Source of the DNA: an uncultured Caulobacterales bacterium
GTDB lineage: Bacteria > Pseudomonadota > Alphaproteobacteria > Caulobacterales > Maricaulaceae
Assembly: GCA_938009235.1 (NCBI GenBank)
Contig: CALLIK010000004.1
Coordinates: 1 to 64,000, forward strand
DNA: 64,000 bases
Direction of reading: 5' to 3'
The position numbers and the translations under genes are program-made. Every line of letters begins with the position of its first letter. Position 1 is the stretch's first letter. Below, piece by piece: positions 27,190 to 34,014 of the stretch. Below the pieces are notes generated by a model. That model saw only the letters and a program-made list of their open reading frames with translations, was not told where the DNA came from and did no database searches.

Positions 27190-28917
27190 GTGACCTTACG
27201 TGCCTTCGCCGCAACAATTTTAACAGCGACAGCGTGCCTGTCTGGTTCAGCCCAAGCCCAAGTTGAGACTGAAGGCCTGCGCGATGCTTTGGTTTCGGTT
27301 TATTCGCAAAACCCACGACTTCTCGCAGAACGTGCCCGCTTGCGCGAAATTGATGAAACTTATGTCCAAGCTCGCGCGCAAGGGCGATTCACTGTCGGTG
27401 GGTCCGCGTCTATCTCTCAAGCGTGGGTCAAGTTTCCAAACGCGAGTGAATTAATTTCAGGCGCAACAGGGGATTTGAGCGTTAGCGGTGCACCCAAAGA
27501 GGCTGGTGTGCAGATCATACAACCGCTCTATCAAGGTGGTCGTGTGCGTGCGCTGAAAAACCAAACCAAATTAGGTGTCTTGGCAGCGAGAGAAAACCTC
27601 CGTGCGCAGGAAAATGCTCTCTTTTTGGCGGCGGCGAATGCCTATGTGGATGTTCGGCGTGATGAAGAGGTTACTCGCATCCGCCGCAATAATGTCTCGG
27701 TTTTGTCCCGTCAGCTAGAGGCTGCTACAGCGCGCTTTGATGTTGGGCAGGGGACACGCACCGATATCGCTCAATCCGAATCACGCGCCGCATTGGCGGA
27801 GGCAGGGCTCGCGCAAGCGGAGGCTCAGCTTACGAGTTCGCGCGCGTCATATGTACGTTTGGTTGGACGTATGCCTAGTTTGCTTAGCGCGCCGCCAAAG
27901 TTCGCAATACCCGCAACGGTATCTGACGCCATTGCCGCGGCTCGTGAGAACAGTCCGCAACTCATAGGGTCTTATTTCAATGAGGCCGCAGGCCGAGCCG
28001 CAATTAATGTTGCCAAGGCATCTGGCCGTCCCACCGTGTCTTTGGCGGGGAGCTTGTCACGTCAACGCGACCAAATTTCAAATATTACAGAGTTCGATAC
28101 GGCTGCGATTACGGCTCAGGTGACAATCCCATTTTATTCGGGGGGCGCTAACCGGTCTCATGTTCGTCAGGCCCAACACGCGAAAACACGTTTGGCCTTT
28201 GAGACGCGTGATGCGGAACTCGCCGTTGATGAGTCCGTGACGAAAATTTGGGCTCAACTTGGCGCGGCGCGCGCAACACTTAAGGCTGTGCGCAGGCAAG
28301 AAGATGCGGCAGAGATTGCGTTTGAAGGCGTGACGTTGGAGCAATCCGTTGGCACACGCGATCAACTGGACGTTTTGAACGCAGAACAAGAGGTGCTGAA
28401 TGCGAAGTTGTCTGTTGTTGAGGCCGAACGAAATGTGAATGCGGCGACCTATAGCTTACTTTCTGTGATAGGTGTTTTTGACGCTGAGGGCATTCGTTTG
28501 TCTGTCGACACCTATGACAAGAGTGCTAATTTTGAACTTGTTCGCTATAAGGGTCTAACCGAAGCGGTTGATACATATGCGCCAGAGTTCACTAAACGCA
28601 TTGGTCGTCAATTGCCCGATTTGGTGTCTGATATCACGGGGTTTACGGAGACACTCTATGTAGACACGCCGCTAAAGACAGGTGTTGAAGGGGCGGGGGC
28701 CTTGGTTGGTTCAGGTGCAAAGGGCGTTACATACGCCATAGATAAAATCACAGGACTAGAGCCTAATACTGACCTTTTACAGGATGTTGACACTTTAGAT
28801 ATCATCATCGAGCCAGTTAAACCTACGTCTAAGCCGCCCTATGACCCGTTAATAGGTGGATCTTTGCATGGCAATGTTGATGAAATTTATATGCCAGCTG
28901 ATTCTCCCGTGGATTGA
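27190..28917 (+). CDS. tolC: TolC-family outer-membrane efflux/secretion channel
   Basis: 575 aa from a GTG; signal peptide ending SAQAQ. The paired OEP repeats are visible as long Ala/Arg/Gln-rich coiled-coil stretches (AQSESRAALAEAGLAQAEAQL; GTRDQLDVLNAEQEVLNAKL) and the strand motif QIIQPLYQGGRVRALKNQ / AQVTIPFYSGGANRSHVRQ. Forms the trimeric outer-membrane duct of type I secretion and RND pumps. About 100 residues longer at the C-terminus than E. coli TolC. Adjacent to pcm and popZ as in Caulobacter. Confidence 0.92.
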   Translation: MTLRAFAATILTATACLSGSAQAQVETEGLRDALVSVYSQNPRLLAERARLREIDETYVQARAQGRFTVGGSASISQAWVKFPNASELISGATGDLSVSGAPKEAGVQIIQPLYQGGRVRALKNQTKLGVLAARENLRAQENALFLAAANAYVDVRRDEEVTRIRRNNVSVLSRQLEAATARFDVGQGTRTDIAQSESRAALAEAGLAQAEAQLTSSRASYVRLVGRMPSLLSAPPKFAIPATVSDAIAAARENSPQLIGSYFNEAAGRAAINVAKASGRPTVSLAGSLSRQRDQISNITEFDTAAITAQVTIPFYSGGANRSHVRQAQHAKTRLAFETRDAELAVDESVTKIWAQLGAARATLKAVRRQEDAAEIAFEGVTLEQSVGTRDQLDVLNAEQEVLNAKLSVVEAERNVNAATYSLLSVIGVFDAEGIRLSVDTYDKSANFELVRYKGLTEAVDTYAPEFTKRIGRQLPDLVSDITGFTETLYVDTPLKTGVEGAGALVGSGAKGVTYAIDKITGLEPNTDLLQDVDTLDIIIEPVKPTSKPPYDPLIGGSLHGNVDEIYMPADSPVD

Positions 28918-29037: not shown

Positions 29038-30831
29038 ATGTCTGAACAGACACCAAATTCATCAGAAGATCTCACGGGTTCAGAACCCAGTATGGAAGAC
29101 ATATTAGCGTCTATCCGAAAGATAATTTCAGAAGATCAGCCCTTGGCAATGGGGTCACCTGAAGACATGAAGGTTGAGCCGATAGCAGAGTCTGTTTTCA
29201 CTCCGGCTGACTTGCCCTCTGATTCAATCATGGATTTCGATGAGGCTGATCTTGGCGTAGCTGAGGGCGATAGTGTCGATTTGAACATTGATGATGTTTT
29301 GGCTAGCATTGGTGAAGATGCGGCTGAAGCGCCTGTCGTGGAAGCCTTAGCCCCAGCGGTTTTAGCCCCAGCCGTATTAGCCTCCGCAGTTTTAGCTCCT
29401 GCTGTTTTAGCTACCGAAACTTTGGCTCCCGAATCATTGGCTGTGCCTGATGTATCTATGAATGCAGATGATGATGTTCTGGCGCTCCTAGATGATGACG
29501 ACATGTTGTCTTTTCTTGATGATGATATCGAACTGGCAACGGATGATACGTCCAAAGTTGACCTAGCTGAAGTTTATATGCCTGAGGTGGATTTACCTGT
29601 CGCTGAAACGCATAAAGCCTTAGATGTTGACGTCCCTGACGTGTCCTCTTTTAGTGATACTAGTTTTGATGTTGAAGAAGACGATGAAATGTCGGCCTTG
29701 CTCGAAGATATACTAATGGAGCCAGAAGAGGCCGCTTTGGAAATAACTGAGGTGCCTGCAGAGGCAGCAGCACAAGACATTGAGCCGAACTACACTCCGA
29801 TCACGGAGTCTGTGCGTGTGGAATCAGATGAAGATCTTGATTTAGTTAAGTCCTTGATGGCCGATTTGGCTGATGATCCTGACGCTATGTCTATGGACGA
29901 AGACCTTGATGCTATGCTCACGATTCCAGATATCGAAGAGCCTGCGCTCGAAACGCCAACTCTTGAGGACGTAACCTTTGAAGAGCCTGCTTTTGAAAAT
30001 ATGGGTGATGATCTTGAAGCCCTATTGAACGACATTGATACGCCCGCTCCGGAAGCGGTTGAACCAGAAGCTGTTGAAGAAGATATTCTCGGCGATATTC
30101 TCGATATGACGCTGGAAGATCAATTGCAGGCACAACCTGATGAAATTCTATTAGATGAATTGCTAGGCGATGAGCTACTAGAAGACGAAGGTGTTGCCGA
30201 TACGGTAGTGACGCATGACGACGTCACGGCGTTTGAGGCGGACAATATCTCTGAGAACTCTGAACACAATCTCAGTCCTGATGACGCGCTCTTTGACACT
30301 GTTGGTGTTGCTGACATGGATGATGTCCCAAGCCTATCTGATATAGCCGCCGCAGCTGAAGCTGATGCCGTCGCTGTCGAAATGCTAGACGACGAAGTAA
30401 CGTTTGACCCAATGCTTGCAGCGACAGGCATTGCAGCTACAGGCATTGCGGCAACAGGCTTTGTTGGCTTGGCGGCGACCACCACTGATGAAGATGTGCT
30501 GGAAACTGAAGCTGTTGCACCAACGCCTGAGCCTGTTTTTGAAACACCACCTCACAAAATTATACCCCAGGAGACTTCCATGTCCGTACAAGCCTTGAAT
30601 TCAGACGTAATCCTCGACGAAGTTACAGAATCTGCAACAGCGGGCGCATTCGCTCAGTTGAGCACCGTCGTTGAAGATAAAGCTGTCTTTAATGAGCGTG
30701 GCCCACGTGTCGGTGATTTGGTTCAAGAAGCTCTGCGTCCAATGCTAAAAGAATGGCTCGACGCCAATCTTAAAGGCATTGTTGAGCGCGCCGTAGCAAA
30801 AGAAGTTAAGCGCATCAGTTCAGGCAAATAA
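29038..30831 (+). CDS. popZ: Polar organizing protein PopZ, strongly extended acidic linker
   Basis: 597 aa. The N-terminal helix EPSMEDILASIRKIISED and the C-terminal oligomerization region (VGDLVQEALRPMLKEWLDANLKGIVERAVAKEVKRI) are the two conserved parts of PopZ (DUF2497). Between them lie about 520 residues of Asp/Glu/Pro/Ala-rich, disordered-looking sequence, against roughly 80 in the 177-aa Caulobacter protein. The linker holds tandem LAPAV repeats (29346-29420), ATGIA repeats (30420-30465) and acidic blocks. PopZ forms a polar condensate that anchors ParB-parS and recruits cell-cycle regulators. Assignment rests on both conserved ends plus the tolC/valS context. Confidence 0.88.
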   Translation: MSEQTPNSSEDLTGSEPSMEDILASIRKIISEDQPLAMGSPEDMKVEPIAESVFTPADLPSDSIMDFDEADLGVAEGDSVDLNIDDVLASIGEDAAEAPVVEALAPAVLAPAVLASAVLAPAVLATETLAPESLAVPDVSMNADDDVLALLDDDDMLSFLDDDIELATDDTSKVDLAEVYMPEVDLPVAETHKALDVDVPDVSSFSDTSFDVEEDDEMSALLEDILMEPEEAALEITEVPAEAAAQDIEPNYTPITESVRVESDEDLDLVKSLMADLADDPDAMSMDEDLDAMLTIPDIEEPALETPTLEDVTFEEPAFENMGDDLEALLNDIDTPAPEAVEPEAVEEDILGDILDMTLEDQLQAQPDEILLDELLGDELLEDEGVADTVVTHDDVTAFEADNISENSEHNLSPDDALFDTVGVADMDDVPSLSDIAAAAEADAVAVEMLDDEVTFDPMLAATGIAATGIAATGFVGLAATTTDEDVLETEAVAPTPEPVFETPPHKIIPQETSMSVQALNSDVILDEVTESATAGAFAQLSTVVEDKAVFNERGPRVGDLVQEALRPMLKEWLDANLKGIVERAVAKEVKRISSGK

Positions 30832-30954: not shown

Positions 30955-33900
30955 ATGCTCGACAAGTCATTTGATCCCAAAGAAGCCGAAGCCCGCATTT
31001 ACAAGATGTGGGAAGACAGCGGCGCATTCAAACCGCGCGCAGCGAAACCTACGGACACAAAAGACGACAACTTCTCCATCGTGATACCGCCGCCAAATGT
31101 GACGGGCAGCCTGCATATGGGTCACGCGCTAAACAACACAATCATGGACATCCTGATCCGCTTTAACCGCATGAAGGGCAAAGCCGTGTTATGGCAGCCG
31201 GGTATGGATCACGCGGGTATCGCGACGCAAATGGTCGTCGAGCGCAAACTTGCCGCTGAAGATAAATTCCGCAAGAACATGAGTCGCGAAGATTTCCTCA
31301 ATCACGTTTGGGCGTGGAAAGAGGAAAGCGGCGGCATCATCGAGCAACAACTTCGCCGCCTCGGCAGCTCTTGCGATTGGTCCCGTTCTAAATTCACGCT
31401 CGGTGCATCGCCAAATGCGGACGCAGAAGAGAAAGCCGCGCAGCAGAATATGGGCGATGGCGTCACCAAGGCCTTCGTTGAAATGTACGAAGCAGGCTTG
31501 ATCTATCGCGACAAACGTCTCGTGAACTGGGATCCGCATTTCCAGACCGCGATTTCTGACCTCGAAGTCGAAACCAAAACCGTTGATGGCCATTACTGGC
31601 ATTTGCGCTATCCGCTCGCCGACGGTGTCACATATGAGCATCCGATCACGGATGAAGAGGGCAATGTCACAGGCCATGAAACACGTGGTTATGTTGTTGT
31701 CGCAACTTCGCGGCCAGAGACAATGCTCGGCGATACGGGCGTGGCTGTGCATCCTGATGATGAGCGCTATGCGGCACTGGTTGGGAAAGAGATTATCCTG
31801 CCACTCGTGAACCGCCGTGTTCCGATTATCGCGGATGATTATGCTGACCCAGAGAAGGGGTCAGGCGCGGTAAAGATCACGCCTGCGCATGATTTCAATG
31901 ACTATGAAGTCGGCAAACGGACAGGGCATGAGTTGATCTCCATTCTGGATGATCGCGGGCATATCCTCCCGCTTGATATTATTCCTGAGGAATTTCACGG
32001 CCTATTTAGCGTTAAAGCGCGCAAACTCGTTGTCGCGCAATTTGACGAGGCTGGACTACTTACTGAGACTGAAAAGCTGAAAATCGAACAGCCTGTTGGC
32101 GATCGTTCGGGTGTTGTGATTGAACCAATGCTCACGGACCAATGGTTTGTTGATGCAGAGAAAATGGCTGAACAAGCCATGGCCAAGGTCAATGACGGCT
32201 CGACGAAATTTGTGCCTGAAAACTGGAAGAAGACCTATGATCACTGGATGGCAAATATCCAACCGTGGTGTATTTCCCGTCAGCTCTGGTGGGGACATCA
32301 AATTCCTGCATGGTTGCTAGGAAGCGGTGGTGGAAAAGCTGCGCGATGGACCAATGCTGAGGAGACACAGCAGCATCGTGATGAAGACGCAGAATTTGAA
32401 GTCATTTGGGATAAACTGAGCAACCTACCAGTAGTTACTGCGGATGCAGAGCAAGTTCCTAGTTTATTGCTACCTATTTTGAATAATGTTGATGAGATTG
32501 CATTGGTGGAGACTATTGAGAAAACGGGAGTGCTTGTTGAAGTCAAAGTAAAGACGAAACTAGGTCAAGCCCTACAATTTACATTTCATCAAGATCCAGA
32601 CGTCCTAGACACATGGTTCTCTTCGGGCCTTTGGCCGTTCTCCACGCTCGGTTGGCCTGAGAACACTGAGGAACTTGCGCGCTTCTACCCGACTTCCGTT
32701 CTGGTCACCGCATTCGATATCATCTTCTTCTGGGTGGCGCGGATGATGATGCAGGGTTTGCATTTCATGAAAGACGAAAACGGCGAGGGCATAGTGCCAT
32801 TCGACGACGTCTATATTCATGCGTTGGTCCTTGATGAAGCGGGCAAGAAAATGTCCAAATCCATCGGCAACACGCTTGACCCGCTCGACCTCATCGACGG
32901 CGTCACGAGTGATGTTCTCGTTGAGAAACGCACACGCGGATTGAAGAACCCAGACAAAGCCCCGCAAATCGCTAAGGCGACTCGCAAAGCCTATCCTGAT
33001 GGGTTCGAACCTTACGGCGCAGACGCGCTACGCTTTACCCTCGCGAGCCAAGCTGGACAGGGACGCAATATCCGTCTCTCCGTTGAGCGTATCGCGGGCT
33101 ATCGTAATTTCGGTACGAAGCTCTGGTCTGCGGCCAGTTTCGGCCAGATGAATGGCTGCGCGCCCGTTGCAGGGTTCGACCCATCAACAGCCACGCTACC
33201 CGTCAACAAATGGATCATTTCCGAAACGGCCAAGACCGCCATGGAAATATCGCGCTGTATCGACACCTATCGTTTCAACGACGCGGCAGATGCGGCCTAT
33301 AAATTCACATGGGACACATTTTGTGCGTGGTATTTGGAACTCTCCAAACCGCTGCTGTCTGGTGAAGACGGAACCGAGAAAGACGAAACCCGCGCGACAT
33401 TCGCCTGGGTGCTCGATCAAATCCTGAAGCTGCTCCATCCCTTCATGCCGTTCATCACGGAAGACCTCTGGGCGAAAGTCGCAGAGGGCCGCGATAGCAA
33501 CCTCATCACAGCCGAGTGGCCGACATATGGCGACAAGCTTGTGGACGCGGACGCCGTAGCGGAATTGGAGTGGCTGCAAACGCTCATCACGAATATCCGT
33601 TCGGTTCGCGCCGATATGAATATCCCGCCGTCCAAGAAAGCGCCGCTCTTGTTGTGTGCGGACACGCTGGACCCGCGCCTCGATACATATGCCCCGCAAC
33701 TCTCGCCAATGGCGCGTGTGGAGCATGTTGAGCTTGCGAGCGCAGTGCCAGATAATGCGCTACAAACCGTTGTCGACGGCGTGCAATACGCCATTCCTCT
33801 GGCAGGCCTCATCGATATGGATGCAGAGCGGAAACGTCTCGCGAAAGAGATCGAAAAAGCCCAAAAGGAAATCGAGCAAATCGACCGTAAATTGGGCAAT

Positions 33901-34014
33901 GAAGCCTTCGTCGCCAAAGCCCCTGAAAAGGTCGTCATCTTGCAAAAGGAACGCCGCGCAGGATACGCCGCAGAGGTCGAAACGCTACAGACCGCATTGG
34001 ACGGGTTGGGGTAG
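30955..34014 (+). CDS. valS: Valyl-tRNA synthetase
   Basis: 1019 aa class I synthetase. HIGH-type motif PPNVTGSLHMGHAL (~45), CP1 editing domain (ETRGYVVVATSRPETMLGDTGVAV), catalytic WWGHQIPAW, DVLDTWFSSGLWPF, KMSKS motif KMSKSIGN, anticodon-binding domain and the C-terminal coiled-coil arm (DAERKRLAKEIEKAQKEIEQ). Longer than E. coli ValS (951 aa) mainly because of about 60 extra residues between GHQIPAW and DPDVLDTW (roughly 32312-32611), where codon use becomes visibly A/T-richer than the flanks. Charges tRNA-Val. Confidence 0.97.
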   Translation: MLDKSFDPKEAEARIYKMWEDSGAFKPRAAKPTDTKDDNFSIVIPPPNVTGSLHMGHALNNTIMDILIRFNRMKGKAVLWQPGMDHAGIATQMVVERKLAAEDKFRKNMSREDFLNHVWAWKEESGGIIEQQLRRLGSSCDWSRSKFTLGASPNADAEEKAAQQNMGDGVTKAFVEMYEAGLIYRDKRLVNWDPHFQTAISDLEVETKTVDGHYWHLRYPLADGVTYEHPITDEEGNVTGHETRGYVVVATSRPETMLGDTGVAVHPDDERYAALVGKEIILPLVNRRVPIIADDYADPEKGSGAVKITPAHDFNDYEVGKRTGHELISILDDRGHILPLDIIPEEFHGLFSVKARKLVVAQFDEAGLLTETEKLKIEQPVGDRSGVVIEPMLTDQWFVDAEKMAEQAMAKVNDGSTKFVPENWKKTYDHWMANIQPWCISRQLWWGHQIPAWLLGSGGGKAARWTNAEETQQHRDEDAEFEVIWDKLSNLPVVTADAEQVPSLLLPILNNVDEIALVETIEKTGVLVEVKVKTKLGQALQFTFHQDPDVLDTWFSSGLWPFSTLGWPENTEELARFYPTSVLVTAFDIIFFWVARMMMQGLHFMKDENGEGIVPFDDVYIHALVLDEAGKKMSKSIGNTLDPLDLIDGVTSDVLVEKRTRGLKNPDKAPQIAKATRKAYPDGFEPYGADALRFTLASQAGQGRNIRLSVERIAGYRNFGTKLWSAASFGQMNGCAPVAGFDPSTATLPVNKWIISETAKTAMEISRCIDTYRFNDAADAAYKFTWDTFCAWYLELSKPLLSGEDGTEKDETRATFAWVLDQILKLLHPFMPFITEDLWAKVAEGRDSNLITAEWPTYGDKLVDADAVAELEWLQTLITNIRSVRADMNIPPSKKAPLLLCADTLDPRLDTYAPQLSPMARVEHVELASAVPDNALQTVVDGVQYAIPLAGLIDMDAERKRLAKEIEKAQKEIEQIDRKLGNEAFVAKAPEKVVILQKERRAGYAAEVETLQTALDGLG

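Follow-up and report, generated by a model that had tools for sequence, protein, structure and literature searches.

A long acidic arm with conserved, predicted-helical islands in PopZ of the Robiginitomaculaceae lineage

Introduction

PopZ is a scaffold protein of the cell pole, and the Robiginitomaculaceae, to which most of this report is devoted, are a family of stalked marine bacteria. PopZ also serves as a leading model for the way in which the length and charge of a linker determine the material state of bacterial condensates. The 177-aa PopZ of Caulobacter crescentus is composed of the helix H1, which is the client-binding region (PMC5182065), an acidic, disordered and proline-rich linker of 78–90 aa, and a C-terminal H2–H4 region (DUF2497). 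Doubling its linker makes the condensate more fluid and the cells less fit, and extra oligomerisation helices compensate for this; engineered linkers reach 156 residues, in one species (PMC9512792).

Two other described systems are close enough to be compared. The PopZ of Agrobacterium tumefaciens (333 aa) has an expanded linker, too, in the form of a 241-aa PED domain, and growth-pole targeting has been assigned to this longer domain; valS lies downstream of popZ in Agrobacterium as in Caulobacter (PMC5686542). In the prosthecate relative Hyphomonas neptunium, PopZ anchors origin regions, and both its terminal regions and its genomic context are conserved (PMC6650430). By its published description, the latter protein is of the conventional kind, whereas the long arm described below, together with its hallmark motif, was found only in the Robiginitomaculaceae lineage. 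A limited search of open-access full text returned no earlier description of this long form or of the motif.

Our main reading, which we hold with a probability of roughly 0.7, is that PopZ of this lineage is a polar scaffold whose disordered acidic arm has grown once and carries conserved short islands of predicted helix. Orthology, synteny, family-wide length, conserved islands and composition were all read directly from sequences.

A complete popZ gene with an expanded middle

The window, by which we mean the whole 64,000-nucleotide stretch of DNA analysed (contig CALLIK010000004.1), carries popZ at 29038..30831 (+), the only copy in its genome. The gene encodes 597 aa, starts with an ATG that has an AGGAA just upstream, and its stop-to-stop frame exceeds the ATG-to-stop ORF by just 7 codons. 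H1 (aa 17–32, PSMEDILASIRKIISE; 29086..29133, +) includes the H1 motif PSMEDILASIRKII at aa 17–30; its core is invariant in 22 long PopZs, and AlphaFold2 predicts a helix at aa 19–32. The C-terminal oligomerisation region H2–H4 (aa 525–597; 30610..30828, +) matches PF10691/DUF2497 over aa 525–594 (E=1.9e-18; 67 bits against a Pfam cut-off of 27), with predicted helices at aa 528–554 and 558–595. Thus, the window locus is confirmed from its sequence to encode a PopZ with H1, an acidic middle and an H2–H4 region, and the original prediction was right that both conserved ends are present. The NCBIfam model NF052660 (PopZ_fam) matched in two stretches (E=3.9e-27; 96.5 bits, under the 125-bit cut-off), its full-length match probably being broken by the long insertion.

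The middle itself comprises about 475–500 residues with a net charge of about −0.27 per residue, and most of aa 35–526 was modelled by AlphaFold2 at pLDDT <50, except for short helices. It is ~5.5 times as long as the Caulobacter PED domain (87 aa, PMC5686542) and ~6 times as long as the Caulobacter IDR, if the latter is taken as 78 aa, the length that the IDR-156 construct implies (PMC9512792). A disordered, acidic middle of about sixfold length had been predicted, and an acidic, mostly disordered one of such a length is supported; the accompanying claim that linker length and charge tune the fluidity of PopZ condensates is borne out by the literature (PMC9512792). Compared with Caulobacter, the ~480-aa window linker is proline-poor and aliphatic-rich and bears conserved islands, while the Agrobacterium linker is about half as long. 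Domain searches revealed no other known domain in the middle of the window PopZ, nor in the middles of 16 relatives, save one weak low-complexity match. Sequence comparison gave no relatives of solved structure for the window PopZ, and a fold search with its model gave nothing below E=0.7, as expected from a low-confidence model.

Upstream of popZ lie pcm and then a gene for a TolC-type outer-membrane efflux protein (27190..28917, +), and valS follows downstream (30955..34014, +). The order pcm-tolC-popZ is common to genomes with long and with short popZ, and valS comes next in most loci whose sequence extends far enough; pcm-tolC-popZ-valS is the ancestral gene order. Long Ser/Ala-rich open frames also run antisense within popZ (29136-29555, 29790-30035 and 30120-30485, all on the minus strand) and are most likely by-products of acidic codon usage rather than genes.

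Distribution of the long form

Long PopZs of 434–843 aa, with a middle some five times as long as usual, occur across eight genera of the Robiginitomaculaceae, while PopZ in related genera has about 150–260 aa. The original prediction had regarded the window protein as a possible natural extreme of linker length. Instead, the long form is fixed in a family-level lineage, and the window protein sits near the median of that lineage (576 aa). Named members with a long PopZ are Litorimonas cladophorae, Algimonas arctica, Hellea balneolensis and Robiginitomaculum antarcticum; orthologues of like length in named isolates and in many independent MAGs show that the long form is no assembly artefact, which had been named as an outcome that would overturn the prediction. 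The nearest rows to the window on a neighbour-gene tree include a genome whose contig matches L. cladophorae, and NCBI places Litorimonas in the Robiginitomaculaceae; the host of the window PopZ is a Litorimonas-like member of this family.

Among 60 relatives, all genomes of the window's genus that gave a match, together with genera g2, g6, g11, g12, g16, g18 and g19, have open PopZ frames of 445–854 aa; elsewhere in the GTDB family the frames span 185–247 aa. A family census with frames measured stop to stop (119 genomes, 104 with a match) gave frames of at least 445 aa in 43 of the 45 genomes of the eight long genera, and 179–408 aa in ten other genera, none above 408. One of the two exceptions (G741) has its popZ cut by the end of a 4055-base contig; the other (G697, the same as MAG L173) has a genuinely short PopZ of 227 aa, to which we return below. 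Among the matches listed in an order census, all 19 frames of at least 445 aa fall in the long-PopZ family, the others having at most 380, and in a census of the whole class, in which 147 genomes gave matches, only two frames outside the long lineage were above 400 (487 and 450).

A second, milder lengthening was observed in genus g25 of family f2, where PopZ reaches about 365 aa in several genomes (L083, L084 and others). Other members of g25 have stop-to-stop frames as short as about 230 aa.

Conserved islands in a variable middle

Column identity in an alignment of 22 long PopZs averages only 0.17 over aa 46–510. Most of the middle is thus unconserved, as well as acidic and of low pLDDT, as expected if it were a passive spacer, that is, nothing more than an extended brush, acidic and disordered, which renders the condensate more fluid and has no specific motif function. 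Against this stand identity peaks of 0.83 around aa 274, 0.60 around aa 437 and 0.54 around aa 354, the first to be set beside a mean of 0.77 over the C-terminal region (aa 525–597). Between the window PopZ and that of locus L062, identity is 87% in the islands, 38% in the rest of the linker and 92% in the C-terminal domain; such amino-acid contrasts replaced region-wise dN/dS, since synonymous sites are saturated in most pairs.

The highest peak corresponds to island I3 (aa 264–282, DEDLDLVKSLMADLADDPD; 29827..29883, +), whose 15-residue core DLDLVKSLMADLTDD lies at aa 266–280. The core is present in all 40 distinct long PopZs; a regular expression matches 38 of them, and the remaining two carry the variants LVRALMEDL and LVKSLLDDL. 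Its start shifts between aa 193 and 510 from one protein to another. The same expression found an intact motif in 0/105 short PopZs and 0/4000 shuffled linkers. As it had been picked after inspection of the data, an out-of-sample test was made with an HMM built from 15 same-genus sequences, with a threshold that 1% of shuffled linkers also pass. Among long PopZs from other genera, this HMM recovered I3 in 25/25, and among short ones in 1/105. Intact long PopZs retrieved later contain I3 as well. An intact I3 was found in none of the short PopZs sampled across the class, and L083 and L084 from g25 lack it. At the level of DNA patterns, the window's genome holds no second copy of I3, only chance-like matches with 3 mismatches.

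The other islands are of narrower distribution. I5 (aa 350–367, ILGDILDMTLEDQLQAQP; 30085..30138, +) and I6 (aa 430–446, VPSLSDIAAAAEADAVA; 30325..30375, +), which account for the peaks of 0.54 and 0.60, were found in 10/25 and 8/25 long PopZs of other genera and in 1/105 and 0/105 short ones, respectively. I1 (aa 84–97, IDDVLASIGEDAAE; 29287..29328, +) is conserved within the genus only (1/25 elsewhere), I2 (aa 213–227, EEDDEMSALLEDILM; 29674..29718, +; peak 0.39) is seen in 4/25, and I4 likewise falls within 0–4/25. On this count, I3 alone is family-wide, as I5 and I6 can each be recognised in fewer than half of the long PopZs from other genera.

AlphaFold2 predicts helices in the middle at I1 (aa 84–95), I2 (214–226), I3 (264–278), I5 (350–365) and I6 (433–453). 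These are to be read as local predictions only, the overall confidence of the model being low (pTM 0.19). When the prediction was repeated on 16 sequences, none of them shared with the first set, a helix was again placed at I3 (block pLDDT 79), so that this block scores about 76–79 over two disjoint alignments, with surroundings mostly <50. In such a helix, L269/V270, L273 and L277 would make one hydrophobic face of an amphipathic LVKSLMADL. The PopZ middle is not a featureless linker, then, but one carrying conserved islands of predicted helix.

Composition bears on the passive spacer as well. After phylogenetic correction, charge density drops as the linker lengthens: independent contrasts within the long clade relate ln(linker length) to acidic fraction with r=−0.42 (p=0.010) and to net charge with r=0.39 (p=0.017), in the same direction as the lower charge fraction of longer linkers in PopZ homologues generally (PMC9512792), a trend that a simple brush would readily accommodate. 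However, more than length has changed. Median net charge is −0.25 per residue in long linkers and −0.22 in short ones, but proline falls from 17% in short linkers to 5.5% in long ones, and aliphatic/aromatic residues rise from 18.5% to 26%. The window linker has 7% proline, compared with a fraction of 0.23 reported for Caulobacterales (PMC9512792); proline content varies among short PopZs, and a proline-rich linker is not needed for PopZ membership. Faced with this shift and with a 15-residue motif kept at 83% mean identity over eight genera at shifting positions, we regard a purely passive spacer as unlikely.

I3 might also be thought of as a duplicated H1 client-binding helix that would make PopZ multivalent for H1 clients. 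There is a loose likeness (DILASIRKII / DLVKSLMADL), and windows resembling H1 are slightly more frequent in linkers than in their reversed sequences (p=0.009). Nevertheless, in scans with the H1 profile, for which reversed and shuffled sequences served as controls, I3 scored negative in its natural register in every protein and was never the best window. A recognisable H1 copy is thus unsupported, and we give the duplication hardly any credence.

A probable single origin and an apparent contraction

In a pcm+tolC tree of 54 loci, a branch with 100/100 support and a stem length of 0.64 separates the long-PopZ loci plus L173 from the short-PopZ loci. The long/short label needs two changes on this tree, whose topology fits a single origin of the long form. 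L173 itself stands at an unresolved fork near the base of the clade, in this tree as well as in a valS+tolC+pcm tree. Its short popZ (L173 3869-4609, the same DNA as L237 and G697) lies inside the long-PopZ clade and retains a decayed I3, DIDLVKSPMAAITDD (LVKSPMAAI), with a proline within the helix. Since its genome shares genus code g19 with several long-PopZ genomes, L173 is probably a secondary contraction, in effect a natural deletion variant, and less likely an early branch that never expanded. As this organism apparently manages with a PopZ that has contracted and whose I3 has decayed, the long arm would not be strictly required.

Proposed role of the arm

We propose that the acidic arm between H1 and H2–H4 grew once, to about 330–740 residues, and gained conserved short helical islands. 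H3/H4 would still oligomerise the long PopZ into a polar condensate, and H1 would still bind clients of the ParA/ParB type. By itself, the long acidic arm should raise condensate fluidity, which is the effect that extending the linker has on Caulobacter PopZ. The I3 helix may then act in one of two ways: as a docking site that recruits a lineage-specific partner, or as a sticker whose additional inter-chain contacts offset the fluidity. The amphipathic LVKSLMADL island most likely works as one or the other. On balance, we favour the view that in the Robiginitomaculaceae a passive spacer has turned into a motif-bearing arm, in which the LVKSLMADL helix would be new and specific to the lineage, serving for docking or as a sticker: it would either recruit an undescribed polar partner or rebalance condensate fluidity against an arm of roughly 500 residues.

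Docking and sticker cannot be told apart from the sequences. Docking is favoured in principle by the growth-pole targeting that the Agrobacterium PED domain carries (PMC5686542). In the sticker version, compensation would come from lower charge density and the helical islands, because extra C-terminal helices are not seen in the long lineage: two AlphaFold2 models and the alignment contain a single H2–H4 region. A lineage with natural linkers of 330–740 residues, one near-fixed predicted-helical motif and at least one apparent contraction offers ready-made variants on which a mutual tuning of length, charge and sticker content could be tested, and the 15-residue motif is a target for mutation.

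Repeats and the Ala/Gly-rich patch

Tandem LAPAV and ATGIA repeats had led to the prediction that the middle grew by repeat expansion. The arrays are real: TRF detects 15-bp repeats at 29347-29411 and 29410-29442 (the LAPAV type, together 29347..29442, +) and at 30416-30463, the last forming the ATGIA array within an uncharged Ala/Gly-rich patch (aa 460–480; 30415..30477, +). The proposed mode of growth is unsupported and was rejected as the main cause. Among 40 long PopZs, both arrays are confined to the window species (an ATGIA stretch in 0/25 of those from other genera), and they account for about 45 of the 475 linker residues, or about 9% of the middle. With the arrays removed, the self-similarity of the window linker is no better than that of shuffled sequences (46 of 100 shuffles as high), and self-alignment of the 40 long linkers exceeded all 40 shuffles in only two. 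What would be left of the idea is growth from ancient repeats eroded past recognition, which we consider very unlikely.

Visible long repeats in a PopZ can be seen in L227 (G065:C124:29000-33500), a distantly related alphaproteobacterium. Its PopZ frame has 487 aa, and the linker shows divergent long repeats of the KETLYGFTKEGTGEFSAAPPVFGN-like kind and appears by eye near-neutral rather than acidic.

A membrane-spanning segment in the Ala/Gly patch was considered and rejected, as peak hydropathy did not rise above composition-matched shuffles and was significant in 1/40. Many long PopZs do have uncharged runs of 18–33 residues between I6 and H2, in much the same position, and for about half of all long PopZs the uncharged patch is longer than in shuffled linkers.
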